Shown here: positions 7,799 through 30,360 of the stretch, piece by piece
Layout: every line of letters begins with the position of its first letter
Numbering within the stretch: position 1 is the stretch's first letter
Assembly (NCBI GenBank): GCA_947034885.2
Contig: OX344751.2
Span: forward strand, 10,726,001-10,790,000
Length of the DNA: 64,000 nt
Origin: Thuidium tamariscinum
Lineage: Eukaryota; Streptophyta; Bryopsida; Hypnales; Thuidiaceae
Direction: 5' to 3'
Position numbers and translations under genes: made by a program
Notes under the pieces: generated by a model
Seen by the model: only the letters and a program-made list of their open reading frames with translations
Told to the model about the DNA's origin: nothing
Database searches by the model: none

Positions 7799-7809
7799 CA
7801 GGGTTGACG
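7799..7809 (+). repeat. Left terminal inverted repeat of the hAT element
   Basis: CAGGGTTGACG, starting exactly where homology to the TNL exon stops. It is followed at once by ACGTCC / CGGACGTCC subterminal motifs (7815-7885) that also occur at the right end (30270-30346). Confidence 0.85.
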
Positions 7810-8122
7810 AATCGGTACGTCCAGGCCAAAATTACGTCCAAAATCCGGACGTCCGGACGTCCGGACTTAGTGGACGTAGTGGACGTTGTCCTCGGCGACC
7901 GGCGGACGGAGAAGCGAACGAAACTGCGGACGGGCAGACGGGCGGTCGGCCTGCGGACGGGCGGACCAAAGTGCGGACGGGCAGACGGGCGGTCGGCCAG
8001 CGGACAGGCGGACCAAAGTGCGGACGCGCGGACGGCACTGCGGACGGGTAGACGGGCGGTCGGCCAGCGGACGGGCAGACCAAAGTGCGGACGGGTGGAC
8101 GGCACTGCGGACGGGAGGACGG
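7810..8122. promoter_or_regulatory. GC array 1: left subterminal CGGACG(T/G) repeats
   Basis: Dense CGGACGTCC copies at the outer edge give way to CGGACGGGCAGACGGGCGG and GCGGACGG units to about 8122. This is the left subterminal region of the element and lies upstream of the SRA gene. Clustered short motifs near hAT ends are known transposase-binding sites in Ac; that role is inferred here. All long 'proteins' in this stretch are translation artefacts of the repeat. Confidence 0.7.
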
Positions 8123-8868
8123 ATGAGTGGGTGGTCGACAACTTGTATTTCTGGATTTAGGGTTTTCAAATAACATGTAAGGTAGATGGCTTGAAAAGCG
8201 ACCCTTTAAGGGCTGTTCGGTTTAGAGTGGGTTTAGGGTTCCCAAAAATATTTCCCCTTATTTTTCATTTCAAGAACCATTGATGCGAAATCTAAACCAA
8301 ATGGTTTCATATATTTCCAATCATTTATAAATTACTTATGTTTTCAAAGAATTCTAGCATAGGTATGTATTTGTGATTCTAGGTCTTGCAAGTTGCAAAA
8401 CCCACACAAGTGCAGTGTGGAAAAAACCATTGCCTGACCAAAAACAAGCAATGAAGCGCTCAAAAAGTAATACTTCAGATTCCTAAATGTGACCTTTACT
8501 AAAATTAAGCCCTAAAACCAACATTGTCTTCATATACTTTTAAGTCCAATTGAAAGTGCTATAACTTTTGTACCCAATTTCCAAATTCAACAAAACTTGT
8601 CGGAAAATTTGCACACTCTCTTCTAGTTTGTGTGATAAAATTTTTAGAACAATCTAAGTTACACTGATTACTTGGGAGTCAATCAAAGTTCACAAGTTCA
8701 ATTTGAATTCACCAAACTGCATTGAGATGGCTTCAACTTCAGTGGCCTGTATCTTTTTTATCAAATGTTAGTTTTCCAAAAAATGTGTTGGGTTATGTTT
8801 TCCTTGAAGCCTAATTATTGTCGTAAATTTTTTTTATTTTTTTATTTTTTTAAACAAATGGAATTCCA
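8123..8868. other. Non-coding stretch between array 1 and SRA gene
   Basis: No open frame of interest. It is AT-rich and probably contains the promoter and 5' leader of the SRA gene, but I see no TATAAG box comparable to those of the other four genes. It ends in a long T-rich tract at 8826-8850. Confidence 0.4.
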
Positions 8869-9723
8869 TTGCAAAACATAGAGTACAAAGCAGCCAAGCC
8901 AAGCCAAGCCAAGCCAGTTCAATCCATTGCTTCAGTCTGTCTAGCCTTGTTCCATATAGATGGCGATGGTCCTATTGCCACGCGAGATTTTCCTGAGGGT
9001 TGTGTGAGATTGCCGAGGAAAGTCACGAAGAACCCCACAAGGCCACAACCAGCGGGAACTGTAGAGGAAGAGGCAATTTCAGACCCTAATGGAGCGGGAG
9101 CTTATGAGGTAGATGGAGAACTACCAAGAGATTTTGACCAGGTCAGTGTCAGGGATCAATTTTTGCAGCAGCGTGCTCTGTACTCCCGGATCTTACAACA
9201 TTATCAAAAACTCAAGACGAGGGGTCAGTTGCTTGGTAATCGGCCTGACTTGCAGGCAATGAAGCAGATGAATGAAGAAGGAAAATCTAATGAGTTTCAA
9301 AAGTTTGGTCACATTCCCGGAATCGTAGTCGATGATCAATTTGAATTTTGGTCAGAAATGTTTGCCATTGGGTTGCACCGGCAAGTGCAAGGAGGGATTG
9401 CATGGGTTGAAGATCGAGGGGAGAAGGTGGCTTGCAGCGTGGTGATCTCAGGTGGTTACCGAGATGATGATGACCATGGGGAGACAGTCAAATACACTAG
9501 CGAGGGTGGAAACGATTACAAAGGTGACAAGCGGTTTTAAGGGGATCCAAAGCCCAAGAAAGGGAACAAAGCGCTTATTAACTCCTACAAACGTGGGGAA
9601 GTTGTTCGTTTGATTAGGGGCCATGATGTGGACGCTGGATGGAACAAAATGTATTCCTATGATGGATTGTACAAGGTGAAGCGTTACAACCTTGAGGTGG
9701 CACGAGATGGTCACAAGGTGTAA
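8869..9723 (+). pseudogene. SRA (YDG) domain gene fragment, SUVH-like
   Basis: The frame contains a RDFPEGC segment like the one preceding the SRA domain in SUVH-type H3K9 methyltransferases, then FGHIPGIVVDDQF, GLHRQVQGGI, SGGYRDDDDHGE and YTSEGGND, and after a TAA at 9538-9540 continues in the same frame with KGNKALINSYKRGEVVRLIRG and YSYDGLYKV (the YDG signature) to a stop at 9721-9723. SRA domains bind methylated cytosine. The pre-SET and SET catalytic parts are absent, so this is a reader without the enzyme. No ATG precedes the conserved part; the frame opens at 8869, and the true start may be in an upstream exon or lost. The TAA could come from CAA by one C-to-T change. It converges on the transposase gene 200 bp away. 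Confidence 0.82.
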
Positions 9724-9921
9724 ACATTGTCACAATTTAATTTTTGTTCATTATTTTTAAATACCATGAAACCAAGAAATCAAAAATCAATAAATCATAG
9801 TGACGTTTCTAATATGCACATGAAAACTTGTATTACTTTCAAAGGTTCAAACAAACCATTTCCATTACAAGCTCCATGTACCATGAATATCTAAACACCT
9901 AAGTCTACATTCCTTGAATTT
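9724..9921. terminator. Convergent 3' ends of SRA and transposase genes
   Basis: A short AT-rich gap between two converging genes. An AATAAA hexamer lies at about 9788-9793, in position to serve the SRA transcript as polyadenylation signal. Assignment is by position only. Confidence 0.35.
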
Positions 9922-12900
9922 CTAAGGCTTGTAATCAACGTCTCCTCTCACCTCAGCTCCACTACTATGACCTCTTGAATCCCATTCCGAGTCTTCTTCA
10001 TTACTTGTGCTATCCATACTATCGGATGAAGACTGTAGAGCTCGCTCTTTTCTTCCGGATACTTGCTTTGATGCAAGCGATCTCTTGCGTCTACCCTTCT
10101 TTTTTTCTTTCACCATGTCTCTACCTCCTAGTGTAGACTTCCCAATCCCTTGTTCAAGACCATTAACCGGTTTCACTTTGCTTTGTGAGAAAGGTTCACA
10201 TACATCAAGGGGGGTTCGACCTAGACTTTGCCGCTTCGATGGTGATTTTGAAAAGGCCTCCAGTATTCTTTTAGTTCTAGCTTTCTTGGACTCTTTCATT
10301 GCTGGTTGTCTTGCTTTTGATCCGCTTGGAATGATGATCTCATTTGCGCCAAAAGAGAGTGATCGATCCGATGACTTCACCCAAGGTCGACCAAACATAG
10401 ACTCCAATGTCTCATCTTCTTCTGGATCCTTATTTCCGTTGCGTAAACTACCGAGACCACCTAAACTTGCATTGCCGTTTTTGAATAGTATGCGTGGAGG
10501 ACCGCTACGTGGGGGTAGGGTTGGATCTCGTACGAGGGGCTTCTTGCCTTTGCCAACATCAAATGACATGGGGCTCCCAGACTCCATCATACCTGCATCT
10601 ACATATGTTGCTATTCCCCGTGCTTTACCTTTCTCGGTACTTGCAAGACAGCTTTTCTTACACGCCAATACTTCAACGAATGCAACACTTGTATCACCAA
10701 CATTTTTGTCCACCTTCACTCCACTGTCTCCCAAGTCGTTCTGTTTTCCAAGTTCTTCTGCTTCGACCCCTACTGGCGATGGACATTTAGAAATTGGAAT
10801 CAATTCATCCGGGGTCGAAGTCCCACCGATGTTCGTCGTTGCCCCATTTCTCTCTTCCATTGCCACATTAGTGTCCCGACTATGTGCTCGAACATTCTCA
10901 CTACTCAATACTGTAGTTCCATCCACAAATTTAGCTTCTGATGGGACACCCTCATCATAGTCGTAATTCTCCTCGTCCTCTTCAAAATTGAAGACATCCA
11001 ATGGATTGTCTTGAAAGTCTTCATCATTATGATGAGGGTTTTGGGATGGTTCATCAACCAAACTAGTCACATTGTATTCCGCATCATATTCATCATCAAA
11101 TAGGGGATCTCTCTCTTCACCATCGCCATGATCTTCACCACCTTCATCCTCTGACATGGACTCTTCCATATCCACACTCTCGAATTGCTCTTCGTACCAC
11201 TTCTTCTCATCATTTTCTTGAGATGCGGAAAGCACTTTAGTATTGGTGTACACATACACCAAATCTTGTGCTCTCTGTGGCGTCAACTTGTTTCGAGATT
11301 TGTTGTGAACAAATGAATAGCTACTCCAATTTCGTTCACACGAAGAGGAAGATACCGGTTGGGCCAAAATACGCTTGGCAATTGGAGCAATGAACTTCCC
11401 GCACGCGCCCTCAAAATCCCACCAAGCATGTGCTGACAATTGTTGTTCGTTGGGGTCCAACATTTTGTGGAAAGGGGGTTCCCTATGTCGAAAGGCTACA
11501 AATTCCTTCACAACAGCGGCATACTATTCTGTGGTACATACTTTCGTTAAAACACGCTTGCATGCATCCATTGCATCTTGATCATCAGCAAGCTCTTTGT
11601 CGTGAAGAAGATAGGGATTCAACAAAGCCCCTGCATAATGTAGATCTGTCTCTACCATCGCTCGCCGTTCATGAAAGGCTTCTTGTAGATGGATGGCTAA
11701 ATCCAAGGACAAACTAAAAGGTGCTTCGTCCAACGACAAAACGTGCTTCTGTATTTTCTTCATGATATGTAGCACCTTCCCCATACATGGCCTTTTTGCA
11801 TCCAAATCGCGTAGACCATGTACCACCGGAGCCGATAAATCCTTGAAATTTTGACAACGCCCCCAAAAATGCTCGTTCAAAATGATGTCCTTCACCCTTC
11901 GGCTCACATTGCGAGGATGAGTATTCCGCCCCAATGTTTTCACGTATTGTTCCCACTGTGGGTCCGTCACCGTTTGCTGTAACTTCCCCTTCACCTTCAA
12001 CATACGGTCCACCATGTTGTAATTGGAAGCAAACCGAGTTTCCACCGCCATCAACAACATGCAGTCCGGCGAGTACCTTCGAAATATTGCAAGAGGCATG
12101 TGCCTCTTTTTGAAGAATTTCACTACGTTACGGGCATTGCCCACGACCTCCTCAATCCACCGTTCGTTGCCCCAATCTTTCAATAACAAATTCAGGGCAT
12201 GGACCACGCAACCCTGGTAAAATATATGAGGGTACTTCGGAGATATCAAGTTGAATGCGGCTTCATTCACAGGCGCATTATCTGCGCTTATTTGTACTAT
12301 TTTGTGAGGACCCACTTCTTCTATGAATTTTTCCAATATAGAGGCTAAATAGGCGGCATTCTTCTCTTTTCCTGTTGTATCCTCCGATCCTAGGAATTGC
12401 TCGCCCACAGAAGACACGAGCGTTGCATTTACCAAAGGACGATTTGCCGCCGAAGTCCACCCATCAATAGACAATGTTGCTCCAAACTTCCTGATGCTGT
12501 CTTCTGTTCGCTTCTTCATATTCACTTTAATGTCTGCCTTCGCTTGATCAAGCAACTTATGTCGTAATTCATGGTATGACGGTGGGGTATAGGGTTTGTG
12601 AAACTCAGCCGTTTTCTTCACCGCTTCTTTAAATGCTGCATTCCGTGCCACCGAAAATGGTATGTTCGCAGCATAAAAAAAATTAGCCCACACTGCATGC
12701 AATTTCCGTCTACTCGCTTCTTCGAAGCCATCTCCTATCCGCCGCTGCACCAAAGGCCTACTAGTTGATCCTACCCCTGTGTCTCCTTCATCTGATGCTT
12801 GAGTACTGGCAAGTGCTCCAGAAGACACGCGGTTTAGGGTCTCTTTTGGTATTGTACAAGAATCTTCCGGTGTAAGACGTATTGGCGATGTCGAAGGTCT

Positions 12901-13191
12901 CTCATTTCCTGCATCATTTTCAACCGTGGCCTCCAATGTCCCGTTTCCACCCAAATTCTCGTTTTCACCTCTTCGTGGGATTATCCCCTTGCATTGACGA
13001 AATAGCTTCTGAACTTGGGATGTGAGTCGTGGACATAGACTGATTCCTCGATCACGAGACCCCGATGCACCTTCATAACCAAGATGGCTAAACATACGGC
13101 ATGTTTTTTTGGCAAACACTAGGTTGCAGGCTTTGCATTGTACCTTCCCAACTGAAGGGGCGCCATACCAAGAAGACCAATCCTTGCTCAT
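9922..13191 (-). pseudogene. hAT-family transposase with long acidic C-terminal tail
   Basis: The chosen ATG at 13191 (MSKDWSSWYG) lies 258 nt after a TATAAG box; the open frame extends further upstream without ATG. Order of parts: BED-like zinc finger (CKACNLVF...HLGYEGASGS...C, residues about 17-52), a DUF659/hAT core with SIDGWTSAANRP, ISADNAPVNEAAF, QGCVVHALNLLLKDWG and TRFASNYNMVDRML, then the hAT C-terminal dimerisation segment (IAKRILAQPVSSSSCERNWS...NKLTPQRAQDLVYVYTN). A TAG at 11524-11526 (codon 556) separates core and dimerisation segment; both sides are open in the same frame, about 1,088 residues in all. After the dimerisation segment comes a tail of roughly 440 residues, first Asp/Glu-rich and then basic (KEKKKGRRKR), unusual for hAT transposases. 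It should have cut and joined the element ends; one nonsense codon makes it inactive unless read through. Confidence 0.92.
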
Positions 13192-13448
13192 AATGATGAA
13201 TTTTAAGTGCGTCTTTGGAACTTCAAATTCCGAGTGTAACCACAAAAAGGGTGAAGATCTCCGCAGGAATAAAAATCATCAATAAAGTAACCGATATAGT
13301 TTGAAAGAAGCCTTGGAAACCAAAGCCCCCCTAACCACTGAACTATGCATTACCAAGCAAGGGACACAACCGAAATTGCAGCGCCTAGCCCTTGGAAATC
13401 TTAGCGTTCAGCTTTACAGGAGTGCTTGCGAATGACAATTTCTGGAAA

Positions 13449-13454
13449 CTTATA
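13449..13454 (-). promoter_or_regulatory. TATAAG box of the transposase gene
   Basis: TATAAG on the minus strand, 258 nt before the ATG at 13191 and just downstream of GC array 2. It has the same word and layout as the boxes of three other genes in the element. Confidence 0.6.
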
Positions 13455-13493
13455 CTCCTTAGTTCTAAGGTTGCTCTTCGTGACCGTTGCAAC

Positions 13494-13712
13494 GGACGGG
13501 AGACAATCCCGATTGACACTGCGGACGGAACAGCGGACCGAACTGCGGACGGCCCGACAGGGTACTCCGATCGGCGGACGGCGAGCGGTCGCGGACGGAC
13601 CCCCCTCGGATGCCCACCAAGAGGCGGACGGGTCTAGCGGACAGCCACCACGAGGCGGACGGCCCCCGATCGGACGGCCCCACGAGGCGGACGGCCTACA
13701 TCGGACGGCCTA
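13494..13712. promoter_or_regulatory. GC array 2: CGGACGG repeats upstream of transposase
   Basis: Repeated GCGGACGG(A/C), GAGGCGGACGG and ATCGGACGGCC units in an AT-rich background, directly upstream of the transposase TATAAG box. It is the same motif family as arrays 1, 3, 4 and 5. Probably a promoter-proximal regulatory array or transposase-binding cluster (inference). Confidence 0.65.
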
Positions 13713-15181
13713 CATCCCAAAGGACCAAGAGTGCACTTGGGGGACTTCAAGAATTTGGGCAGTTACTTGTCACTTCAATTTTGAACAAATTCGCTAGAAA
13801 TTTTCACATAACTCAGATAGAAAACTTGATTAGCTCTGTGGGAATATTATTCTTTTCCAATTGGTGACCGTGAGCAAAAGTTATGCCATCTTCAATATCA
13901 TTTTCATGTCGCCGGGAAGAAAAAAATCATCAAAAACTTCAGAATTAAAAAAATAATTTTTTTTTCTAATTGATTTTATTTTTGTCTACAAGACTACAAG
14001 TGAAGCTTTGATTCATTCAATTTGGATTAGTGATGTGAAAGTCATGAACAATCTTGTTTTTTAGACAATGTAAGCATGTTTTAAAAAAAAAAAATTTAGG
14101 ATTCACTTGTGAATGCAATTTCCACAATTTTCAATAAAAAATTGTTGGGCAAGGTTGTTTTTGCTTGCCAAAACAATTTCACCATTCAGATTATAGTGTT
14201 TCAATTCAATGTATGAGATCTTTGCAATTTACTTTCTCTTTCAATCTTGGACCTACATGTACTTGACAATTTTTTAAAGAATGAAAAAACACACTTTTGT
14301 TGCTGAATTTGTTTTCCTGAGCTGTTACCTCAATTTCTCAATAGAAAAAAGTTTAAATTCAAGGTCTGTAGTGCAAAAAAATTACAGAAATGGAGGACAA
14401 AGTCATTTGCATTTGCAAACTCAAGTTCAAAAAAACATTGTTTTCCAACTTTGAATGCTCATATTAGGGTCAAACTTCATGAAATTTCCACCACATTGGA
14501 TACAACTTCTGTGAAAATCTGAAAGAAAAACCCAAAAAAAAACCCATTCATAATGAGTTGTTCGATATTCCTATGTTCCAAAAAACCCAGTTGGGTCTTT
14601 AAGGGCTTTCAATTATACTTAAATTGTTATTACAAATTTACAACTGGACTTCAAACATCTTAAACTTTGTTTTAGAGACAACAAATCACAAAAGACTTTC
14701 TTGTAGACTAAATTGAACTTGGTTTCTTTAAACTCTTCAAGATCATGGTAATTTCAAAAGCATTTGGAAAAAAATATGGAATGATCAAAAATGAATTTAT
14801 GAAGTTCTACAGTGAACATAGTAATTTTATTTTTTTTCCTGCATGGCTCCTACCTTCATTCACATATCCCATTCTCTTCTAGAATTAAAATTAGCCTTTT
14901 GCATCATCAAACAAAAACATCTTCATATATGATCAATTGATCATATGATGGTACATGTCAGACTTCAACTAAAATAAAACTCTTGAATATATATACACAT
15001 TTGCAACTCTGTATTTTACACTTATTTTTGTATTGATAAAAAAAATACAAACCATACTATAGCTACTATGAATGATTTGCAATGAATCTCCGAAAGATTC
15101 AAAGTTAAAACAAGTCCTCCGTAATATAATATCTAACAGCTAATAAAAGATCCACTTCTACTAAATCTTTTCACGAATACC
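13713..15181. other. Non-coding AT-rich stretch with dispersed repeat
   Basis: No gene. The segment around 14.4-14.5 kb (phrases 'ttttccaactttgaatgctcat' and 'caaacttcatgaaatt') has close relatives at about 28.16-28.24 kb (same strand) and 25.1-25.2 kb (inverted). A perfect palindrome ATATGATCAATTGATCATAT lies at about 14926-14945. Confidence 0.5.
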
Positions 15182-18100
15182 CTACGGTGTAACACGAGAT
15201 GGACCCTCTCTATCCCTAAGTCTTGCACTTGTACGGCGAGTGTGAGGACCGGGGCTTCCGTCGCCAGTGGACCCTCTCGAAGCCACTGCCATATCAACAG
15301 CACTGAATTGTCTTTTTGTTTCTGGAGAGAAGTCATCCTCATCTTCCACCCTCCGCTTATTCTTTCGCTTCTGAGGCAGATCCACTTCATGTGCCTTTAA
15401 TGCTTCCAAGGCATCATCTACTAAAGCTACCATTAAGTTCAGTGTTACATTGACATCTCCAACGGAAAACCAGTGCGGGCCGGGGCCATCTCCTCCCACT
15501 AAAAATTTTCGAAAAGACATTATGGCCTCGCTCATCCTCCTGTCAAAAGCCCCTGCCACTTCCACAATTGACTGTGAGGAGTTGGAATCCCCGTCTAACT
15601 CTACAAGAGCTCGAACCTGCGCAGCTTCTTCCAACTTTGACAGAAAGAGGGCCCTCCCTATCAATGTGTGATTGTACGCCCCGTATCGCTCTTGCAACTC
15701 TTTTGTATGCTCCACATCCACCCAATTGCCATCTGGTCCTTTGTTCACTTCCTTCTCTGGAAATCGAAAGAACTTGTGATGGTCTATGCTCCAATGCCCA
15801 CCCATGCCGCGACAAAACAATTCGCGAGCTTCGGGATCTTCAATACCCCTTGCTCGCAATTCCACGTGTCGATCTTGGGTCATCCACACAAAGGGATCTA
15901 GCGGCACCATTGCCTCTTCGTACAACCCATGCTTCTCTTCCAATGAATCCCACGTGAGAGGTTTTCCCCAATGCATATAATTTTGGAAGTAAAACGGGGC
16001 TTGATCAAGTGGAAGGGTCCATCGATTGTATTCGTGACTAGGGGGCATACATTCCAAGGTCCCAACCATTTCGTAAAACCTTGAACTCAAAGGAGAACGA
16101 CACTCCGGACAAACCGAGCGAACGAGTGAGGCTTTGATTATGCACGTCACATGGAAAGTGTGACGACATTGGCCCATAGTTAGGGCTCCCTCGGGACCAA
16201 ATGGACCTTGACAAATGCTGCATTTACCTTCCAAGATCCCTCGAGAAGTGTGAGAAGCATGCACCACTGTCTTCTCATTGTCCTTGATGTGTGCCGAAAG
16301 AGTGTTGTACGGAACCCAACCTTCTTCTACCTCCAAGGCCCAATTGATGTGGGGTGATTCTTCTTTCTTTGTGTGGTTCAACCGCTCGAACATCGCGTCC
16401 ATGTCTCCCCAACATGTGATTTCTGTAGTCCCCTTCGGATGTGTTTCAAACCTCTTCCTCATACTCATCAGTGAAGATTCTACTATTTGCTGTTGCTCAT
16501 CCGATTTTCCAGCCAATTTGAGAAGCCCTTTCATTGCTCGCGAAACTACAGTTGGTTTGTCTTCTAGTTTTTGAATCCATGCCAACCATCGATCGTCTTT
16601 GGTACTCTTTGGAAGGGAGTCATCCAATCGAAGAACATGCTCTAGTCGTTGCAATTCACTCTGCAAAGACGCGTTTTCTTCGGTGAGCTTCTCCACTTTC
16701 TGCTTCAATTCATCAACTTCATGGCATTCTGTTTGAATGGGAGCATCTTGAAATGAAGTTTTGCGATTTTCAATGGCCACTAGAGGTGTCACTTCATGTA
16801 TCTTTTTTTTCTCATCGCCACTAAAATGCTTAGCTCCATCTCCTTCCTTAGCTTCGGTGAACTCACCTTTTTTGATCACGTCCTTCAATTTCTCAACTTC
16901 TGACTCCAAATCTTTAATACGATCACTTTGCCATTTCACAGTTGCAACTTGAAATTGTGCCGTATTCTTAGAAGTCCTCAATTGCTCTACCATTTCGTTT
17001 GAGGTTCCCTTCAATTCTTTCTGCAAGGCCAGCAGTTTTGTATTCTCTTCCAAGAAGGCCACCAATTGGCGCTTGTCCTCGAAGCGCTCGTCCAAAAACG
17101 GTAACAAGGACTCGGTGAACTTATGAAACGTCAATGCACTTGCCAACAATTCAGGTGACAATTTTGCAAACTCCTGTGCCACCTCTGTAAGTTGCGGAGA
17201 TACTTCAGTTACAAATCGACCTAGAGTTGCCAATGTCACTTGGATTTTAGCAACAGTTGCCCAACTGTGACGATTGGCTTCACCTTGGGTTGCAATGCTT
17301 GTGGTGGCCTCACTTGTCTCTTTTGACCGGTTTAGGTCAAGAAGGTGAGACCCAAACATAACTGAACCCTCCAACAACCGTTCCAGCTCTGCGGCATTCG
17401 GCATGTTCGAAAGAGCCTCCAATTGTGATGTGTTCAATGTGGACAAATGCGGGTATTGGCTGGGGATGACTTCAACATCGATGACTACTTCTTTTCCTTT
17501 TCCCTGAGACGCCTCTCAATTTTTTTTGGCGGTAGCTGCTTCAATTCTGGCGCTCTGTACGGGGCTGGAAACGCTCGGTTTGCTCAAACATGATGGTTTA
17601 GGGTTTAGCCCGAAGATGTCGAGAGCATTACTGTCAATAATATCATGAATTGTAGCATTGGCCTCAGCAACTTCTCCCTCGGCTACCTCTTCCGTATCTT
17701 CAGTACCTTCACATCGAGCCAATGGGGGCCCACCTTCTTTCTTCCCACTCTGAATATCTTCAAGAATGCCCTGTTCAGCCACCGTCGTAACATTTGGTGT
17801 GCATATTAAATCTGTAGGAGGAGTTGCAAACACTTCTCCTTCCACACCTTCACCTTCAGTATCTTCCATTGTCCTCAAAGTGTGTGTAGGCTCACTAGGC
17901 TGCAAGCGTGGTCCATCACTTGGTACCTCTGAGACTTTTGTTTCAATTTTTCTAGTATTTTTTAATACTCTTTTGGGCTTCGGTACCTCACTTGGCCCTC
18001 CTTGAGGATTGTACAAATCGGGAATGTCTTTTCCATTCATTTCTTGTACAAATGGAGTTTGTACTGTCGTCGGATACGTGCTCCAATCCACCTTGCGTTC

Positions 18101-18499: not shown

Positions 18500-18640
18500 G
18501 ACTTTGAGTCCACCACTGTCGGGAAATGAAAAATTAGTTTGATCACCCAACTCTCCACCTCGTAGGATACAACTGGCACAATGAAGCAACAGTAGAACAT
18601 CCGACAAGGTTGAACCCAATAATGGAGAGGAGTGAAAGAA

Positions 18641-20517: not shown

Positions 20518-20940
20518 GCAGATACGAAATTTGTGGCACATTTCTTGGACGTTTCTCGAGGTGGTAAAATTCAGTTCCAAGACTCCACAGGAGTTGAATC
20601 CATGCCAACCATCGATCATCTTTGGTACTCTTCAAATTTCATGTGGTGGTTTGAAAATGCACCAAGCAATTATAGTGTACTCTTCCAATTTGGACTATAT
20701 TGGAAGGTAGCCTCACATGTCCAAGCTGTGGCAAAGTATTCTTGTAATTCCTGGTAGCACAGATTCTTGTGAGAGGGCATTTTCTACTCAAAATTATATT
20801 GAGTCTAATTTACGTTCTAGTTTAGTATTGGAGACTTTGGAAGCAGAAATTCGAGTTGCAGTGGCAAGAATTCCTATAGAAGCCATTGACTTTGAACAAG
20901 TTTGGGTGAAATGGTGTGGCATGAAAGGTCGCGGCTTGTA
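20518..20940 (+). pseudogene. Relic of a second hAT transposase (C-terminal part)
   Basis: Frame 20717-20940 reads ILVIPGSTDSCERAFSTQNYIESNLRSSL...ETLEAEIRVAVARIP, a hAT C-terminal dimerisation segment of a different subfamily from the main transposase. Upstream, in another frame (20533-20756), WWFENAPSNYSVLFQF looks like the preceding part, so at least one frameshift is present. A 39-nt stretch inside it (20594-20632) is nearly identical to 16571-16609 of the RING gene. It is a decayed fragment with no function expected. Confidence 0.65.
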
Positions 20941-22317
20941 GGTTTGTTTTCTTTTGTACGCTATGGTATATAGTGACTCTTTTCATGTGCAACAAAAAAT
21001 TCATATTGGTATTACAAATTTTTCAAAATTGATAATATTCAAACTCACCAAAAAAAATGTATGGAAAATGAGGGACACCCAAAAATTGGACAAGGGTGTC
21101 CTTCTAACACCCAAAATTTTGACCACAGTGTCCCCTAGAAATTTGGCTAGGGTGTCAAATTTATGCCCTAACTGTGAGCTTGTAAGCCTCAAAGATGATG
21201 CACCTGTAATGTAGTTGTTTACACTATAGAAACCTTGTATAATAAGAGTGTATTTATATTATAGAGCCCTATATTGTAGGTATTTTTACTATAAACACCT
21301 TCTTAGGTGGAAGTATAACTACTTATATACATATTAGGAGTTCACATGCTCGTGTTCATGCTCATTTACTAGCATTGTTGCACTATTTTATGTTCAAGTT
21401 TTCATGAATTAGAATCCCATCCACATCAAAAGAAAGTGAAATAAGTTAGAGTCAATCACTCCATCCATGAACTTCGCACTAATTTATGTTCAAATTTTTA
21501 TAAGTTGCTTCAATTTTTTTTTCGTTGTTTAGGGGTTATAGATTGAAATTTGTAGACATAATAATTTTTGAATTGACATCTTCAAAATAAACATAATAAA
21601 GGACTAATGAGACCACATTGTTTTATTTTACACATGAAAACAGAAGTGTTCATAATGGATTTCTATATTGATATTTTTTTTCAAACATATTCTACGCATA
21701 GTCATACAATTTAAAGGTCAATTTTTTTAAGTAATAAATACGATTACACTACAATTTTTTCCAAATTCTAAAAATAAAATATTATATATAAGAAACTAAG
21801 ATACTAGGAATCAAAAAAGCATATCTGTTTTTATCATAACAAATGTTTTATTCACAATTCTAAAACCTGAATATGGTATACAAACAGGTTGTGCAATCAG
21901 TAAATGAGAGGAGGTCCTAAAAGTGCTCAAGACCGAAGACCACCCACTTCTTCAAATGTAAGTTATTTAAACATGTTGTTTTCCTGTACACTTCAGCAAT
22001 GTGCAAACAATGTACATTTTAGGAGGTGGGCGATTTTAGGTCCCCATGCCATTTCAACTCTAAAAATTCATAACTAATTTGACATAGTTCCACAAAGTTC
22101 CAAAGAACTTGGTTTACATGCTAATTGCACATATCTTTCAAGGACAATTGACCATTGAAGGATTAAAAGTAAATAATAGGTAGGTAAAACTTCTTGAGGT
22201 AGTTCTAAAAAATATTCTCTTTCAAGACAAGTGGAATTGATGTGTACCCCATTTGGTTTTGTATTTTTTAAAGCTTCGTAGAATTAGTTATGAAATTTTG
22301 AAGTTGGAATGCCCCGG
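20941..22317. other. Non-coding stretch with MITE-like remnants
   Basis: No gene. Around 21.07-21.16 kb there are repeated and inverted 'gggtgtcc / ggacaccc' words, suggesting a small foldback. The 21.9-22.15 kb part shares phrases (aggaggtcct, 'cttcagcaatgt', 'ttccacaaag') with the MITE at 61556-61885. Confidence 0.45.
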
Positions 22318-22797
22318 GGCCGTCCGATCGGACGGCCATAGTGATCGGACGGCCCCGAGGACGTCGAGGCGGACAACTCCGACGAGGTGAGGCGGACGGC
22401 CGCGATCGGACGGCCACTGCGATCGGACGGCCCCAAGGACGGCCCCGAGGACGGCCCCGAGGACGACGAGGCGGACGGCCCCGGTCGGACGGCCAGCGCG
22501 ATCGGACGGCCCCGATGACGACGAGGCGGACGGCCACGACGAGGACAACGCGGACGGCCCCGGTCGGACGGCCAGTGCGATCGGACGGCCCTAACGAGGC
22601 AACACGGACGGCCCTGATCGGACGGCCAGCGCGATCGGATGGCCCCGGTCGGACGGCCAGTGTGATCGGACGGCCCTAACGAGGCGACGCGGACGGCCCC
22701 GATCGGACGGCCAGCGCGATCGGACGGCCCCGACGAGGTTGCGGACGGGTCGGTCCGTCCGCAAGGTATAAGATAGGCGGACGGCCCGTCCGCAACC
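22318..22797. promoter_or_regulatory. GC array 4: GATCGGACGGCC repeats upstream of kinase-like gene
   Basis: The purest of the five arrays: about two dozen GGACGGCC units, mostly as CGATCGGACGGCC or GAGGCGGACGGCC, in a nearly head-to-tail series. It ends at a TATAAG box and two more CGGACGG copies. The high CpG density makes it a likely target of DNA methylation. Confidence 0.7.
22767..22772 (+). promoter_or_regulatory. TATAAG box of the kinase-like gene
   Basis: TATAAG followed by ATAGGCGGACGG, 222 nt before the ATG at 22989. The leader between them is free of the array apart from two motif copies and contains a pyrimidine-rich tract, as in plant 5' leaders. Confidence 0.6.
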
Positions 22798-22988
22798 GCA
22801 TTCTTATCTTCCCCCTTGTGTTTCACAAGAGAGAGCGGAGAGCTTGGTGGTTAATCCTCCATTGGCTCCTTTCTAAGGGAAGTTAGGAGTGGGATTTAGG
22901 GCCAACTTGTTGCCCTTTTTTTGTATATCTTTTGTGCATTGTGCTTGAAATCAAGAGTTTTTAAACTCTTATCATTGATTTGATCACG

Positions 22989-24476
22989 ATGCCGAAAGGA
23001 AAGAAGGTAGCAAAGGCAAAACCGGTAGCGCTAGACATTGAGGACATGCCTTCGGATGATTGCAAGGCATATGTCATCCGTATCATAGTGCAGTTTTATG
23101 AGGAGGAGAGCACTGCATCCCTTGATACCAAGTACATCCGATACGAAGAGGAGTGCATTGAGAAGTTCAAATCGGATATGACGAAGAGGATGACGGATGC
23201 TCTCTTTGTTCCAGGATGGATTCATGAAACGGAGAAGAGAGGCTTCCAAAGGTTTCTGCAGAACAGGGTGCAAGATTCATTGTGGAATGCCAAAGTGGTA
23301 TTGACAAAGTACGGGAAGGAACATCGGGTGGATGATCCCACATTTGAAGAAGTCATTTTGAAGGCGGACTTGTTTGTACAACGATGTGCTCCGTTTACAA
23401 AGAATGCTAGGAAACGGAAGGGACAAGGATCATTGGGGTGGTGGAACACGGATGAAGGAGCTCTAGAATTGCAACGTGGGCGGCGGCATCTTGTGGCATT
23501 GCCCATTACCGCAAGGGTGATTCCACAAGACAGTACGGTCTTGAAGGGGGGCTATGCAACAATACAGAGGGTGCGAATTGAAGGATGTGCTGAGATACCT
23601 GCCTCTTGGGAGTTTGCAGCGAAGGTATCGCATCAACAACGCTTGAGGCCTCAACTCGCAAAGTTGGAACACCAGAACGAGTCAATGGCAGTGCGGATTC
23701 CACATGACGGAGTTATACGATTCGCAGCAGTCCATGGAACAAACAATGAAGGGTACATGTATTGGTGGAATGGTGGAACGTTGAGGCAAATGTTGAACAT
23801 GGATAGGGACTATCCAGATGACATTCACATTCGATTGGCTTATTCCAAGCCATCACCCGAAGAGGTGAATCGAGCATTCTTTCTAGCTCGATGGAGAAGG
23901 AAACGAACGGAGCTCGCATGGGCATTGGTGCACATTTTGCATGCGGTGCATCAAGCGGGGCATCTACACAACGATCTCTCGCCGGACAACATCATGTTTC
24001 ACTTTCCGGATGATGAGTCACGTGTATATATTGGGGTTTGCGATTGGGGCATGACTACCATACATAGTGATCCACCCAAATCCTTGTACACTTTCACATC
24101 TGAAAGTGAGAAGAAAGAAGCTTTGCAAAGAAGATGGTGGGTGGATCCGTCTATTGTGTATGTGCATAAGAAAGATGCAGATGTGGAAACGATTCCACAT
24201 TTATCACGTAAATCAGAAGAGTTTGCGGTTGGTAAACTAGCTCAACAGATCAACAAGCAATGCATGTCCAAGGAGTACGCGGCGCTCCATCGTGATAACA
24301 GAGGACATACGAAGTGGAGCCACCATGAGTTAGGACTTGTGTTTCATAATTATTTGGAACTTCTGTGTTCTACAGATGTAGAGAGGGCAGTAAGTTTGAC
24401 TAAAATCGTCCAACGATTTACTGGCCCAGGTTACAATTGGCCTATCCCAGATGAACATTTCTGCCATTCATATTAG
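22989..24476 (+). CDS. Protein-kinase-like cargo protein (495 aa, intact)
   Basis: The frame is intact from ATG 22989 (MPKGKKVAKAKP) to TAG. The N-terminal 150 residues are basic and of unknown family. A protein-kinase fold follows: glycine-rich loop LKGGYATIQ (about residue 187), lysine of AAK (about 212), catalytic loop H-N-D-L-S-P-D-N (His327, Asp329), and a metal-binding motif D-W-G (Asp352) in place of DFG. The catalytic Lys, Asp, Asn and Asp are present, so activity is possible. The HND and DWG variants and the poorly conserved activation segment place it outside the common plant receptor kinases. It has its own GC array and TATAAG box. Role in the element is unknown; phosphorylation of the transposase or of host factors is only a guess. 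The family name is not recognised. Confidence 0.8.
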   Translation: MPKGKKVAKAKPVALDIEDMPSDDCKAYVIRIIVQFYEEESTASLDTKYIRYEEECIEKFKSDMTKRMTDALFVPGWIHETEKRGFQRFLQNRVQDSLWNAKVVLTKYGKEHRVDDPTFEEVILKADLFVQRCAPFTKNARKRKGQGSLGWWNTDEGALELQRGRRHLVALPITARVIPQDSTVLKGGYATIQRVRIEGCAEIPASWEFAAKVSHQQRLRPQLAKLEHQNESMAVRIPHDGVIRFAAVHGTNNEGYMYWWNGGTLRQMLNMDRDYPDDIHIRLAYSKPSPEEVNRAFFLARWRRKRTELAWALVHILHAVHQAGHLHNDLSPDNIMFHFPDDESRVYIGVCDWGMTTIHSDPPKSLYTFTSESEKKEALQRRWWVDPSIVYVHKKDADVETIPHLSRKSEEFAVGKLAQQINKQCMSKEYAALHRDNRGHTKWSHHELGLVFHNYLELLCSTDVERAVSLTKIVQRFTGPGYNWPIPDEHFCHSY

Positions 24477-27400
24477 TATTTTAGTGTTTTACGTAGAAGT
24501 ACATAAGTATTGAATAGATGTACCGGCAAGGAAATATATCCCTATGTACTTCAAGTCCTCAACTATATCTTAAAAAGATGTGTGCATCACAAATTTTCCC
24601 AAATATATGTGCAATTCACTTCTATCTCACATTTGTTTTTGCATGTTTTGGTCTTTTGGAACCTGTCATGATGAGTTGACCCTTGAAGCCTTGAAGTATT
24701 GGTTCTTTAGATTTTGATCTACTTGGAAAGTTTTGAATAATTCCATTTTGATTTGTAAGATGAACATTAGGCCCTATGGGACTTACTAATTTTTCTAGAA
24801 TTTTGTGTACATCTCCCAATTGGTGCACTAGAAGATCTTAGGGTTACATGTGTCACTTCTAGTTTAAAATTTTAAAGTATGACCCATGGTTACATCCATA
24901 TCGATAACTCTATTGCTATGTCAATTAGATTTTTAAAATGAAATTGTACATTAATTGGGAAATCCTTCTTACCCCTAAAGGACCAAGGCCTTCTTTTTGT
25001 CAATAAACTCTCGAAATTGCCAATTCTGTTGCATTCATCGAAGAAAAAAAAAAAAAAAAAAATTTAAGGATCTAACCGTAGGATCTTGTACTTAACTTGA
25101 TTGAGATTAAGTGGTAAAAATTTCATGAAGTTTGACCGTACAGATTGGAAGATATGAGCATTCACAGTGGGAAATACAAGTTTTTTGAACTGCGGTTTGC
25201 AATTTCAGATGACTTTGACTGGAATTTGTATTAAAAAATCGCATTGAAGACTTTGAATCTATAATTTTTTGTGTCAAGAAATTGAGTTGAGAGTCTAGGA
25301 AAAAAATTTCACACAAAAACACTTGATTTTCATTCTTTTGCAATTGTTAAGTAGATGTAGGTCCAAGATTGAAAGAAAAAACGAATGGTTAATAACTCTA
25401 AGATGGGATCTAAATACAATAATCCCAATGGTGAGATTGTTTTAGAAAGTAAACCTTACCCTGTCCAACAATTTGTTTTGAAAAATAGTGAAAACTGCAT
25501 TTTTAAATGAATCATGTATTCCTATAAGTTATTTTTTCAAGAAATTGTTTAGATTGACCGAAAAACAAGATTGTCCATAACTTTCTCATTGTAAGTCCAA
25601 AAAGAGTGAATCAAAGCTTCACATGTAAGCAATATTATATTATTTTAGAAAAATTAAATAAAAAAATTAAATTCTGACTTTTTGCAAAAAATAAAATTCT
25701 GCCCGGCGAATGAAAATTTGGGCTTTTTGTGGTATAACGTTTTCTCCCGGTCACCAATTGAAATAAAATTTACATTCCCATGAAGCTAATCAGTTTTACT
25801 ATCTTATGAGAAATTTTCAAAAAGATTCATTAGAAATTGAGGTCAAACAATTATTTAAATAATTTTAATCTTCATAATAATAACATAATAGTTTTTAAAA
25901 TAAATAAATAAACCTCATATAGTTAAATTTTAAAAAAAATTATTGTGTTTAACAATTTGAATAAATTTAATTGTTTACTTGCTAAAAGTTACCATTACAA
26001 ATAGTTCATATTTTTCTACTTCATTGTTGGGAACTTGGGAGTTGGAATGTAAAAGGAATTTCCTATAGACCAAAGAACGCAACATTTGGATACTATATTA
26101 TATTTTTATGTTTCAAAATAGTTTTATTAAAATATGCTAGTCTACTTTTCAAGCTACTATTTCATATCTTATTGACTTTTCAAAGAATTTGAGCTCCTTC
26201 AAACAATTTTCAAAAAATTGTAGGAACTAGGAAGAGTGAAGTTGAATTTGGCATTTGATTGAAGTCATTTTATATTTTCGCATAAATCAATTCTGTAAAT
26301 TAGTAGCACATCGAATCCTCCATCTTCCTTTCAAACATCTAAAACCTCTTTCTATAGCCATTCTAGTGCTGGTCTGCTAGATAGTATGAAATTTCAATGA
26401 ATTTTTTTCCTTAATAGTCCATCTTATACATCTTTGAATGGTCTAATTAAATTTGCACCACCTCCCACTAATTTGGAAGGTAAAAAATTTGTAGAAAAAC
26501 AATGTTTTTATTTTGGAAGTAAAATAAATTGGAAGAAAATAGAGAAACACAAACAAAAATTTTGTTGTTTATTTTTCTATAAAGATTAGAGGTAGAGAAA
26601 AGATAAGCACACGTATTTTTAAGTTTTTAAAATTTTTTTTAATTGATTTCATTGAGCATTGAGAGAATCTAAGAGAACATGAATTAGAAATTGCGCCCTA
26701 GAATCCAGCCCAAGGGGTTTATATTAACTAGGGCCGGATGGGAAAATTAGGGCCGGATAGAAGGCCGGATTGAAGGCAAATCCGGCCGACTTTCCATTCG
26801 GCCCCAGGCCCAATATAAACCGGCCCTTAATACCTTGTGCTGTTAGAGGTTGAATATTTTGCATTTCTTTATAAGTCAATAAAAAACAGAATTTACACCA
26901 ATCAAGAAGAATTTCGAACCGTGACAAACTGACAATCGAAATAGTATTTTGGTGAGGTATTGAAAGTTTATATTCAACATTTATTTAAAAATAATCGGAA
27001 TTTTTTCTTTACTTCGATTGGATGTGTACTGGTTTTTTTTTGTGCTTTACATTATCTTCTAATTCTTCTTTGATACTAACTTCAAAACAATCGTAATGTT
27101 AATATTTTATAACACATTTGGGTTTTGTCCTAACCCATTGGGGTTATAGGGGTTCAAAATGTATCGGCCTTTTGAACTTGTTCATTATTTGTTAAAAGAA
27201 AACAATGTGAAGATCTACTAAAGTACTAATTCTACAGTCTCAGGAGTCCTATATATTCAAGGACTTTGGAAGGTTTGGGATATTGAAGTGTTCAAGAAGT
27301 ACACTTCAACTAAATTAGTGGCAACAAATTCTGGGCCTTCTTCGGTATGGGAAAATTGATCGGGTTTTTGGTAATATAATTTTATTTCAATTGTAATTTG

Positions 27401-28657
27401 AGAGAAAATTTATTCCCCCTAAGGCCCAATGTAGGCAATAGAAAGAAAAACAAGCATGATTTTGAAAATTACATTTTTTTTTAATAGCAGTTTTTTCTAC
27501 GTAGAGAAACTTAATTTATTTTCATTGCCTAGGACGTTGTGACGACTATGAATCTTCTTGTTTTTCAAGCAATAACAGTAGACTTTTTAGAAGAAGAAGC
27601 ATTACATCCATTGTAATAGTTGAATAGAGAATTGCATAATTTTTTTTTTTTTTTTTTGAAAACAGTTTCACCATTGGAATTAATGCGTTTCAATTTGATG
27701 CAGGACCTGTCACCAATTTAGTTTTTGTGTCCATTTGAAGCTTTGATTCATCCTATTTGGACTAATAATGAGAAAGTTATGGACAGTCTTGTTTTTTGGA
27801 CAATGTACGCATCTTCAACCCTAAACAGCTTGTAGAATTTATTTTTGAGTGCAATTTTAAATTTGTACCATTTTTTTTTCTTAAAGCTTAAGTTTGTTTT
27901 CAAGAACAATCCCACCGTTCGGATTATGGTTTTTTTATTCAATATAAGGGCTATTAAGAATTCAGTTTTTTCTTCAACTTTGGACCTACTTCTACTTAAC
28001 AATTTTTTTTAATGTGGAAATCAAGTGTTGGCATTGTAAAATTTTTTTTACGAACTCTCAACTCAAATGCTGAAGATAAAAAATTTTGACCTCATGGTGT
28101 GTACTGCAAAAAAAATCCAGAAATGGCCATCAAAGTCACCTGAAATTGCAAGGCGTAGTTGAAAAAAACTTTGTTTTCCAACTTTGAATGCTCATATCTT
28201 CCAATCCGTACGGTCAAACTTCATGAAATTCTTACCACATGTTGTTAGAGAAGTGAAGTACAAGATCCTACGGTTAGATTCTAAGAAAAAAAGTGTTCTT
28301 AGGTTTCTTGAGTGATTGCAGCAGAAATGGCAGTTTTCAGTGGTTTGATAGTCAGAAAATGCCTTGGTAACTTAGGGTTAATTTGTTTTTGGGGCAAACA
28401 TAATGAACACACAAACTCACAGCTTTGGAAATAAGGAGGAAGCATAGAAGCTTCACAAAGAAAATGGGACATAATTGGATCGGAATTTACAAATAGGCAT
28501 ACTGAAAATTTATATTCAAAAAATGGCGAACATCCTCATATCGTCCTTATGCCAATCTATATCCTATGGCAAGAATATACAAAAATCGATTGCTAATTAC
28601 TATATTTCTATTTTAAAGCAACCATTGTTTCGCTACAATCTTCCAAACCCTAAACCC
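24477..28657. other. Non-coding interior of the hAT element with nested repeats
   Basis: No gene. Visible parts: a possible nested element with CCCCTAAAGG near 24981 and TATAGGGG near 27161 (ends related to the elements at 49333 and 60182); an inverted pair of the dispersed non-coding repeat (25.08-25.8 kb minus, 27.65-28.3 kb plus); and a GC-rich palindrome at 26717-26826. At about 27.05-27.16 kb, reverse-complement copies of the 49.33-49.7 kb repeat can be recognised. Confidence 0.5.
26717..26830. repeat. GGCCGGAT palindromic cluster
   Basis: The perfect hairpin GGCCGGATT-gaaggca-AATCCGGCC (26763-26787) sits inside a larger imperfect palindrome with GGTTTATATT (26717-26726) opposite AATATAAACC (26812-26821). 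It stands out as a GC-rich island in AT-rich DNA and is probably a small foldback element. Confidence 0.6.
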
Positions 28658-29737
28658 TCACTCAAATTCCGAATCGGTGTCATCTTTGCGAGTTGGGCCA
28701 ATTGAACTAGATCCAAAAGTCCCGAGAAATGGTCCACCACCCCATATGTCTCCAGATCCGCTTGATGCACCTCCATGCCCATAATTTCCATAGTAAGGTC
28801 CTCCAAAAGTTGGAGGAGGAATTGAATCATCACGCTGAGATCCCCTGTGCCGTGTATCATTATAAGAACTACTTCCAGAGAATCCAGGATAGTACTGAGA
28901 ACTACCTTGGTTGGAACCATAATCACGTGTGGTTCCTTGGCTACCTTGGTAGTTGCCATAGCCACCTCGAGGGTCATTACTGTAGTGTGGATCACTTTGG
29001 CGATTTTGGGTCCCATAAACACTATGGTCATGTTGATACGATCCATGATGCCCATGTGGTCGACCACGATCCTCAAGACTTCGTTGCATTGCATCTCGCA
29101 TTTCTTGCTCGTATTGGATGTCTTCGCGTTCTTGTCTACGCCGAGGTATCTCTCCAAATGACACAGGCACTGAAGCATCCTTCTCCTCCTCCTCCTCCTC
29201 CTCCGACCAATCATCCTCAGCATCCGGCAATACAACTGGTGCATATCCAAGTTGGCCTCGGTTAGACCACTCTGGCATACAATCACTTATACCAGTCCAA
29301 CTCGTATAAATAACAGCATCAGTACGATGCAGTTCGTGGACATTTTTGCCGTAAATTGTGCGCCAATCCACATCTTTGTGGAGCACAATCTCTGCCCAAA
29401 CCATGGCCATGTTGGAGTAGTTCATCACATTCGGTTTGGAGTCACGTATTTCAGCTGACCGTGTGACTTCCTCATACCGGTGGACAAAGTGCTTGCTTAG
29501 GCACGTCGAAATTTGTCCCTCCCAACGACGAACTTGCTTTTCAGCACGTTCTCTTGACCACATTTTTGAGAGGTGCGTCATTTTGACGTACTTCTTGCAT
29601 GTTGTGCAGTCCCAAGATTTCTTCGGCTCCTCCTCCCATCCAGGTTCTGCTACACACAAAGGGTTTGCCCAATCCTCCCAATTCATGTCTTGGGATTTGC
29701 CCTTGGAACTAGATTTTGGTTTATCGTTGCGAGGCAT
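28658..29737 (-). CDS. CKKYVKM-domain protein with Gly/Tyr/Ser-rich tail (359 aa)
   Basis: An intact frame from ATG 29737 (MPRNDKPKSSSKGK). Residues about 40-140 (TCKKYVKMTHLSKMWSRERAEK...KHFVHRYEEVTRS...MNYSNMAMVWAEIVLHKDVDWRT) match the N-terminal domain of the RING-H2 gene at 15182-18499. A Glu run (coded by a GAG-repeat tract near 29185-29206) leads to a tail rich in Gly, Tyr, Ser, Asn and Gln, of the kind found in disordered, condensate-forming proteins. I do not recognise the family. Shared domain, shared array and shared TATAAG box suggest it was duplicated within the element or its lineage. It may bind the same partner as the RING protein (inference). Confidence 0.75.
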   Translation of the reverse strand: MPRNDKPKSSSKGKSQDMNWEDWANPLCVAEPGWEEEPKKSWDCTTCKKYVKMTHLSKMWSRERAEKQVRRWEGQISTCLSKHFVHRYEEVTRSAEIRDSKPNVMNYSNMAMVWAEIVLHKDVDWRTIYGKNVHELHRTDAVIYTSWTGISDCMPEWSNRGQLGYAPVVLPDAEDDWSEEEEEEEKDASVPVSFGEIPRRRQEREDIQYEQEMRDAMQRSLEDRGRPHGHHGSYQHDHSVYGTQNRQSDPHYSNDPRGGYGNYQGSQGTTRDYGSNQGSSQYYPGFSGSSSYNDTRHRGSQRDDSIPPPTFGGPYYGNYGHGGASSGSGDIWGGGPFLGTFGSSSIGPTRKDDTDSEFE

Positions 29738-29909
29738 GGTAATAAAATTACCCCAAAGTCCAGAATTAGGGTGATGGGAATTTCAGGGCCGCCCAAAAGC
29801 AAATAATAATTAAAACTCAATACTATGAAAGTATTCAAGTTTTAATCACAACCATCTCACCAAAATGAAAGGGGCTCACAGAGCTCGAGGCACTGGATTA
29901 CCCACTTCG

Positions 29910-30346
29910 GAAGGCGGACGATTGTGCCTGAATGAGCCGTCCGCGATGCTACTTATACTCGTGGACGGCGGGCAACGTCTCCATCGAGATCGGACGGCCT
30001 TCAGAGCGGACGGGAGATCGTGCGGCCAGAAGTTGTCGTCGTCGGTGCGGACGGCCTACGGACACGCGGACGGCCTGCGGACGGCATTCCGGACGGGCGG
30101 ACAGGGTGCGGACGGCCTGCGGATGCTCTCCACACCATCCGCCCGTCCGCACGACATCCGCAGTCCGTCCGCACTCTGTCCGCCCGTCCGCAAGCCGGCG
30201 GCGTGCCCGTCCGCACTGTGTCCATCCAAAATGCCGTCCGCAGAAGTGTCCGGTCGTCCGTCCGCTGGACGTACGTAAAAAAAAATTTCAAATGTCAATG
30301 GACGTCCGAGGGTTAGCGCCTACGTCCCGTGGACGTCCGGACGTCC
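29910..30346. promoter_or_regulatory. GC array 5: right subterminal CGGACGG/CCGTCCG repeats
   Basis: CGGACGG units from about 29970 to 30120 turn into the inverse CCGTCCGC from about 30137 to 30262, and then into GGACGTCC words at the outer edge. It serves both as the right subterminal region of the element and as the upstream region of the gene at 28658-29737. It resembles array 1 at the other end. Confidence 0.7.
29952..29957 (-). promoter_or_regulatory. TATAAG box of the low-complexity CKKYVKM gene
   Basis: TATAAG followed on the coding strand by TAGCATCGCGGACGG, 215 nt before the ATG at 29737. Its layout relative to a CGGACGG array matches the other three boxes. Confidence 0.6.
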
Positions 30347-30357
30347 CGTCATCCCTG
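30347..30357 (-). repeat. Right terminal inverted repeat of the hAT element
   Basis: Reads CAGGGATGACG on the minus strand, differing from the left end by one base. Homology to the TNL exon resumes at 30361 after TAA. Confidence 0.85.
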
Positions 30358-30360
30358 TAA

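Follow-up and report, generated by a model that had tools for sequence, protein, structure and literature searches.

The hAT elements are textbook one-gene, cut-and-paste transposons, and the question raised by a locus of the moss Thuidium tamariscinum is whether an element of this type can hold a whole set of genes as one mobile unit. The locus lies in a stretch of 64,000 nucleotides (assembly GCA_947034885.2, contig OX344751.2, positions 10,726,001 to 10,790,000), which in its full length we call the window and by whose own numbering positions are given unless another contig is named. A first-pass annotation of the window had described positions 7799-30357 as a multi-gene hAT-type transposon inserted in an NLR gene. 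We find that this segment is a single mobile unit of 22.6 kb and of hAT type, with a core set consisting of a transposase, a RING/coiled-coil protein, a protein-kinase-like protein and a protein of 359 amino acids (aa). New here is the finding that CGGACG hexamers in the element are confined to five arrays, four of which lie upstream of the four gene starts.

The element begins with the left terminal inverted repeat CAGGGTTGACG (7799-7809, plus strand) and ends with the right terminal inverted repeat CAGGGATGACG (30347-30357, minus strand), each located by motif match and each recurring in other copies. These repeats are 11 bp long with one mismatch between the two ends, which confirms the Ac-like CAGGG(T/A)TGACG inverted repeat that had been read there, and we take their letters to resemble those of the Ac terminus. 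Exact matches to CAGGGWTGACG in the 64 kb are restricted to the two element ends; allowing up to one mismatch yielded five matches, compared with a mean of 0.82 in shuffled sequences, none of 100 of which reached five. Junction reading placed the left copy of the target-site duplication, TTTCCAAC, at 7791-7798 and the right copy, ATTCCAAC, at 30360-30367 (both plus strand), the two agreeing at 7 of 8 bases and the right copy being preceded by two extra bases. The sequence TTCCAAC, reported at both junctions, is present on each side, but on the right three bases separate it from CCCTG. Flanking the element are the 3' part (7302-7798) and the 5' part (30368-30987) of an NB-ARC exon on the minus strand, recognized by exon joining; these flanks of 497 and 620 nt, respectively, rejoin to exactly the claimed 1117 nt with one frame open and with 86% identity to the mirror exon. 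Because the joined flanks give an open exon of this length that matches the mirror exon, we conclude that the element interrupts the exon. The alignment with the mirror copy was run on the exon only, whose NB-ARC/TNL label is that of the first-pass annotation.

Searches were made in the genome of the window itself (363,211,507 bp in 19 contigs) and scored only the best candidates, such that all copy numbers are lower bounds: 40 of 301 candidates were scored for left ends (queried with the left 302 bp of the element), 40 of 211 for right ends, 86 of 669 for the kinase, 78 of 694 for the N-terminal half of the transposase and 113 of 1077 for the 359-aa gene. A same-strand right end was found within 60 kb for 27 of the 40 left ends (0.13 expected), with 20 pairs at 22.0-22.9 kb and 7 at 23.4-43.3 kb, and reading of the DNA gave right ends for five further left ends at 22.3-22.5 kb. 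Both ends were thus found for 32 of the 40 scored left ends, 25 of them at 22.0-22.9 kb (window copy counted), and even a left end that is only 85% alike (C11:61513) is still part of a 22.6-kb unit. Seven copies were fetched, five of which are colinear with the window copy from end to end, with the four genes in order and aligned pieces at 96.7-99.4% identity; a sixth is colinear as far as the stretch fetched for it reaches, its right end having been located later, and in the copy at C11:9962788 the likeness ends inside the fourth array. Of the 5 fetched copies with the complete core set, 2 have every gene of that set open. Perfect 8-bp target-site duplications flank 9 of the 11 other copies in which both junctions were read; for C2:8342713, junction reading did not locate the termini. 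As a separate observation, the full copy at C4:3907852 (G000:C4:3907604-3907852) is itself inserted into a further family member, in the left part of that recipient, and is flanked by an 8-bp duplication of the recipient's own sequence.

Three of the four genes were also found paired in order in dozens of places in the genome. A divergent kinase lies within 30 kb of 67 of the 78 transposase places (chance, 0.28), at 9-11.5 kb in 55 of them. Of the 86 kinase places scored, 78 have at least 87% identity, and by a count made by eye 38 of these 78 are stop-free over at least 486 query residues; the 113 places of the 359-aa gene comprise 80 with at least 88% identity and 33 with 56-58%. Downstream of 75 of the 78 kinases, on the opposite strand and within 30 kb, lies a 359-aa gene (69 at 3.5-5.5 kb). 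Split hits were entered once in these pairing counts, which removed 1 of 87 kinase rows and 1 of 79 transposase rows; the count for the kinase and the 359-aa gene also leaves out 8 distant kinases and the 33 distant rows among the 113 of the 359-aa gene. The RING gene lies between its neighbors in the window, is full length in all seven fetched copies, and is also present in a diverged copy on contig C10 and at a locus of a second family. Taken together, the full-length colinear copies and the genome-wide gene pairing establish the unit status of the cargo, which had previously been inferred; the search that had been suggested for further insertions recovered them with ends approximately 22.4 kb apart and gene order kept, and neither of the two refuting outcomes named beforehand, partial gene sets in random order or ends that never stand about 20 kb apart elsewhere, was borne out.

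The first-pass annotation had counted five substantial genes, two of them intact. Intact genes for the kinase and the 359-aa protein are indeed present, but the content is really four core genes and one decayed SRA piece. The transposase gene (9922-13191, minus strand) has 1089 codons with one in-frame TAG, and its frame is open in 4 of the 7 other copies read. Its open reading frame (ORF; 9922-13275, minus strand) matches the Pfam families PF04937 (DUF659, E 9.1e-35) and PF05699 (Dimer_Tnp_hAT, E 4.3e-10), both above the cut-off, and residues D243, D304 and E594, which we take to be the known hAT acidic triad, together with C328..H331, presumably the C/D..H motif, are invariant in 12 of 12 aligned sequences. 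A BED zinc finger gave no Pfam match up to an E of 1; in the transposase alignment C19 and C22 are nearly invariant and H36 is invariant. The C-terminal tail is long and variable and ends in a stretch that is alike in relatives. The RING-H2/coiled-coil gene (15182-18499, minus strand) has 1105 codons with one in-frame TGA, and, like that of the transposase, its frame is open in four of the seven other copies that were read. It spans two adjacent ORFs, 17516-18766 and 15182-17515 (the latter, on the minus strand, with the Pfam RING match), and since these share one frame with the TGA between them and are both covered by homologues that are single proteins of 1120-1140 aa (P0002, P0003 and P0004), we regard them as one gene. 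The ligands of a C3H2C3 RING-H2 finger (C432, C435, C450, H452, H455, C458, C469 and C472) are invariant in 6 of 6 sequences, and the protein is predicted to be ligase-like. Recoding of the stops in the transposase and RING genes was rejected, as the stops of the window copy are missing from copies with open frames.

The intact protein-kinase-like gene (22989-24476, plus strand) encodes 495 aa. Its structure model has a predicted local distance difference test score (pLDDT) of 77, and Foldseek against the PDB returned protein kinases at probability 1.0 with low TM-scores (approximately 0.3 by query length). Residues K214, D331, N336 and D354, which we take to be the Lys, the catalytic Asp and Asn, and the metal-binding Asp, are invariant in 18 of 18 sequences, with DWG in place of DFG, and by these residues the gene would qualify as encoding an active protein kinase. 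The 359-aa gene (28658-29737, minus strand; 374 codons from stop to stop) is intact, and sequence comparison showed that its N-terminal domain is common to the RING protein. The SRA-domain piece (8854-9721, plus strand), presumably SUVH-like, was recognized by its Pfam SAD_SRA match (E 8e-20; ORF 8854-9540, plus strand) and has an in-frame stop at 9538-9540 that is identical in all 8 copies read; because of this common stop it looks like a decayed captured fragment and was rejected as a working gene. A remnant of a second hAT C-terminus (Pfam Dimer_Tnp_hAT; 20464-20941, plus strand) lies within the stretch common to full copies. Two further features of the interior were observed: an odd short match, 39 bp long and 97% identical, that links the RING gene (16571-16609) to this hAT scrap (20594-20632), and a non-coding repeat of approximately 700 bp at 13797-14494, 24969-25818 and 27732-28381, where one of the three copies is inverted. 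Weaker partners of this repeat, which is an older family within the unit, lie beyond the element near 2.8-3.0 and 60.9-61.0 kb.

The element belongs to the hAT superfamily on account of its Ac-like termini, its 8-bp duplications, both Pfam domains and the conserved acidic and C..H residues, and the family statement of the first-pass annotation is thereby supported. It departs from the single transposase gene of hAT elements in having four core genes; a single gene is usual in plants and is no defining rule. CACTA (En-Spm) elements have CACTA termini, a 3-bp duplication and a CACTA transposase, in place of which we found CAGGG termini, an 8-bp duplication and a hAT transposase. The VANDAL elements, which belong to the Mutator superfamily, were rejected as well, with no transposase domain other than DUF659 and Dimer_Tnp_hAT in the nine ORFs covered by the Pfam scan. 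A Pack-type element, that is, a non-autonomous carrier of gene fragments, is contradicted by the four open core genes in 2 of 5 copies and by ratios of nonsynonymous to synonymous substitution rates (dN/dS) below 1 between lineages.

On either strand, CGGACG occurs 85 times in the window and 81 times inside the element, and all 81 of the latter fall in five arrays. Array 1 (7846-8113, 14 hexamers) occupies the left subterminal region; array 2 (13493-13707, 10 hexamers) lies 302 bp upstream of the transposase start, array 3 (18644-18932, 14 hexamers) 145 bp upstream of the RING gene start and array 4 (22321-22792, 24 hexamers) about 200 bp upstream of the kinase start, while array 5 (29915-30343, 19 hexamers) occupies the right subterminal region, 178 bp upstream of the 359-aa gene. 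The probability that random placement would put the three internal arrays each within 302 bp upstream of different starts is 0.0004. Array lengths differ between copies, from 435 to 539 bp for array 2 (8 copies), 404 to 459 bp for array 3 (8 copies) and 486 to 633 bp for array 4 (7 copies); the RING-gene spacer is constant at 4419 bp in 8 of 8 copies and the other two spacers vary by 23-26 bp. Arrays precede the RING, transposase and 359-aa starts in the C10 copy, and the RING, 359-aa and kinase starts at the second-family locus, where the stretch read for the transposase ends at what may be the first hexamer. That the internal arrays are the termini of smaller elements was rejected, as a scan with CAGGGWTGACG found no internal terminus with up to one mismatch inside the element and none of the four two-mismatch matches is located at a CGGACG array. 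At the edge of the second-family element (L067, 2457-2807), the sequences CAGGGTCGATG and CAGCCCTG lie approximately 350 bp apart and flank a CGGACG array; this pair may be the end of that element or a small relative.

In order to ask whether the four genes have been kept under constraint, we compared lineages. The window kinase gave dN/dS values of 0.16-0.50 against 9 of ten diverged family copies and 0.99 against the other (3 synonymous changes), and 0.16 against two second-family copies (dS approximately 2.1), with the reservation that the 12 diverged kinases had been picked as stop-free, which lowers the ratio. Five pairs among the fetched copies gave 0.29, 0.35, 0.42, 1.11 and 1.14, and comparison with five near-identical copies, at 4-9 changes each, ranged from 0.18 to 1.63 with one undefined value and no clear signal. 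Against the C10 copy, values were 0.39 (N-terminal) and 0.67 (C-terminal) for the transposase, read to the end of the stretch, 0.26 and 0.53 for the RING gene, read to a frameshift, 0.39 for the 359-aa gene and 0.24 for the kinase. Against the second family the RING gene gave 0.20 and 0.26 and the 359-aa gene 0.21, at a dS of 1.2-2.2, for which reason these comparisons are near saturation. All four core genes thus have dN/dS below 1 between lineages, and we read this as suggesting that the four genes were needed while the element multiplied and have been decaying after insertion.

The second family was read at one locus, around the kinase at C2:29175811, where protein identities to the window copy are 58% and 39% for the transposase, 43% and 36% for the RING protein (with two stops in its aligned second part), 57% for the 359-aa gene and 59% for the kinase. 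The order there is transposase (minus), RING gene (minus), 359-aa gene (plus) and kinase (plus), and as the 359-aa gene has moved and turned, the gene arrangement is not frozen. Two of the named kinase relatives from beyond the genome of the window belong to the moss Ceratodon purpureus, and one of these two stands for 126 sequences. Indirect evidence of linkage elsewhere comes from contig sizes: transposase P0100 and RING protein P0002 are both on contigs of length 17,649, and transposase P0105 and kinase P0039 are both on contigs of length 27,639, with chances of such equality of approximately 0.0003 and 0.0009 among contigs above 12 kb and of 0.011 and 0.039 over all those entered, in a comparison that took in 47 of 92 kinase contigs. 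Viral contigs, scanned with alignments of the kinase, the RING protein and the transposase, gave no result, and neither did genome contigs scanned with that of the kinase; the scan of genome contigs with the transposase alignment found two short hAT-like stretches in records labeled as archaeal and bacterial metagenome-assembled genomes (MAGs), and a PHROGs search returned weak kinase and unknown-function matches and nothing else. A kinase of the same family (P0009) is filed under a Bacilli MAG and is probably plant contamination of the metagenome bin.

We consider it probable that the element is an autonomous four-gene hAT unit, the accessory proteins of which would regulate or protect it by way of the CGGACG arrays. 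The hAT transposase is predicted to move the unit by cut-and-paste and would bind the arrays at both ends, as the Ac transposase does its subterminal hexamers, and the internal arrays would be bound by a protein that the element encodes, either the transposase or the N-terminal domain common to the RING and 359-aa proteins. Such binding could switch on the four genes together or keep them free of host silencing. The targets of ubiquitination by the RING protein and of phosphorylation by the kinase would be either host silencing factors or the transposase. Given the single stops in its transposase and RING genes, the window copy itself would need other copies in order to move. More tentatively, and with slightly less than an even chance of being right in full, we propose an ancient moss lineage of autonomous multi-gene hATs whose cassette comprises a kinase, a RING ubiquitin-ligase-like protein and its small relative, with all four genes forming one regulon through CGGACG arrays, of which those at the ends would also serve as transposase sites, and with the whole working as a signaling and anti-silencing system of the element that arose independently of VANC.

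Several observations weigh against the autonomous unit proposed here. The window copy is without an exact 8-bp duplication (7 of 8 bases plus the two extra ones) and has two broken genes (the TAG and the TGA), and among the 11 other copies two, c6 (C6:19710120) and C11:11974068, have no duplication. The Pfam Pkinase match (E 9e-6; ORF 22965-24476, plus strand) is under the Pfam cut-off, and the structure model of the RING protein (pLDDT 37.6) is too poor for use. The position of the RING gene was read in the window, seven close copies, one diverged copy (C10) and one second-family locus, in the last two of which the gene is broken, by a frameshift and by two stops, respectively, and the 359-aa gene has another position and orientation in the second family. 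As regards constraint, the stop-free choice of kinases, the value of 0.99 in one of ten diverged copies and the two related-copy pairs at 1.11 and 1.14 all count on the same side.

Among other explanations, the one that survives best, although we judge it rather unlikely, is that the accessory proteins act on transposition chemistry or copy control, by phosphorylating and ubiquitinating the transposase, and not on host silencing, with the arrays serving as sites at which the transposase regulates its own cassette. Arrays at the two ends as well as ahead of every gene, the binding of subterminal hexamers by the Ac transposase (PMC3260210) and the long variable tail of the moss transposase, with its final stretch alike in relatives, would all suit copy control, whereas tandem motif arrays that change in length resemble the VANC targets, which serve anti-silencing (PMC5735166). 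It is improbable that the accessory genes of a real multi-gene hAT are host-derived passengers that serve the host or nothing and are merely spread by the transposase. Plant transposons commonly capture genes (PMC8903248, PMC13317346) and the SRA piece of this very element, with one stop in 8 of 8 copies, resembles a decayed capture, but against this reading stand the transposase-kinase (67 of 78) and kinase-359-aa-gene (75 of 78) pairings, dN/dS below 1 between lineages, the recurrence of the set at a single locus with 36-59% identity and the presence of one and the same kind of array upstream of every gene. Finally, an accidental pile-up of nested transposons and captured fragments of genes, to which the hAT scrap at 20.5-20.9 kb and the repeats inside the element (14.0, 25.0-25.8 and 27.7-28.3 kb) might point as old internal insertions, is refuted by copies elsewhere that share the whole unit with its ends, length and order, and by the lack of any internal terminus with up to one mismatch, and we regard it as extremely improbable.

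Two observations concern the rest of the window. The sequence AAGGGATGACG, at 35608-35618 (plus strand) and 42278-42288 (minus strand), is one mismatch from the hAT terminus, and its sites sit in a region repeated at 34-36, 41-43 and 62-64 kb, possibly belonging to other repeats. The two mirrored NLR genes contain direct repeats of 141 nt, likely leucine-rich repeats, with 9-12 copies in the left gene (4498-6852) and 6 in the right (47836-48812).

If the proposed autonomous unit is correct, it would show that multi-gene regulatory programs can arise in a plant DNA transposon of a simple kind, as they do in VANDAL elements. The family offers a clear test system, with many near-identical copies of which some have all four frames open, and it is a warning for annotators that big moss kinase and RING "families" may be transposon genes. 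No description of a comparable multi-gene hAT turned up in the literature searched, which covered in part neighboring topics and left most subscription papers and all bioRxiv preprints outside, and the word hAT is absent from the available parts of a review of giant transposons (PMC6431247) and of a 2026 review of gene capture in plants (PMC13317346).

Of the systems described so far, ToxhAT is similar as a hAT-named element (14 kb) with cargo but is fungal and tied to Starships, a comparison made by description and not by sequence. Pack-type transposons, non-autonomous carriers of captured coding DNA (PMC8903248), can likewise carry host gene pieces, of which the SRA piece looks like one, whereas the moss element has whole genes with signs of constraint alongside its transposase. 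The red alga Chondrus crispus has enlarged En/Spm (CACTA) elements of 16-20 kb with 4-5 ORFs, which are also cut-and-paste elements grown by extra ORFs (PMC6431247); they are CACTA and not hAT, and were set beside the moss element by description. With Ac/Ds of maize the element shares 11-bp terminal inverted repeats, an 8-bp duplication and hexamers near the ends, which in Ac are bound by the transposase, but Ac has 4.6 kb and one transcript (PMC3260210), whereas the moss element has 22.6 kb and four core genes, every one of them preceded by a hexamer array. In the VANDAL elements of Arabidopsis, the targets of VANC are dense, non-coding tandem motif arrays that change in length, and the likeness lies both in accessory genes kept by the element and in motif arrays that gain and lose units between copies (PMC5735166); the transposase is a different one, and the moss accessory proteins are of RING and kinase types.

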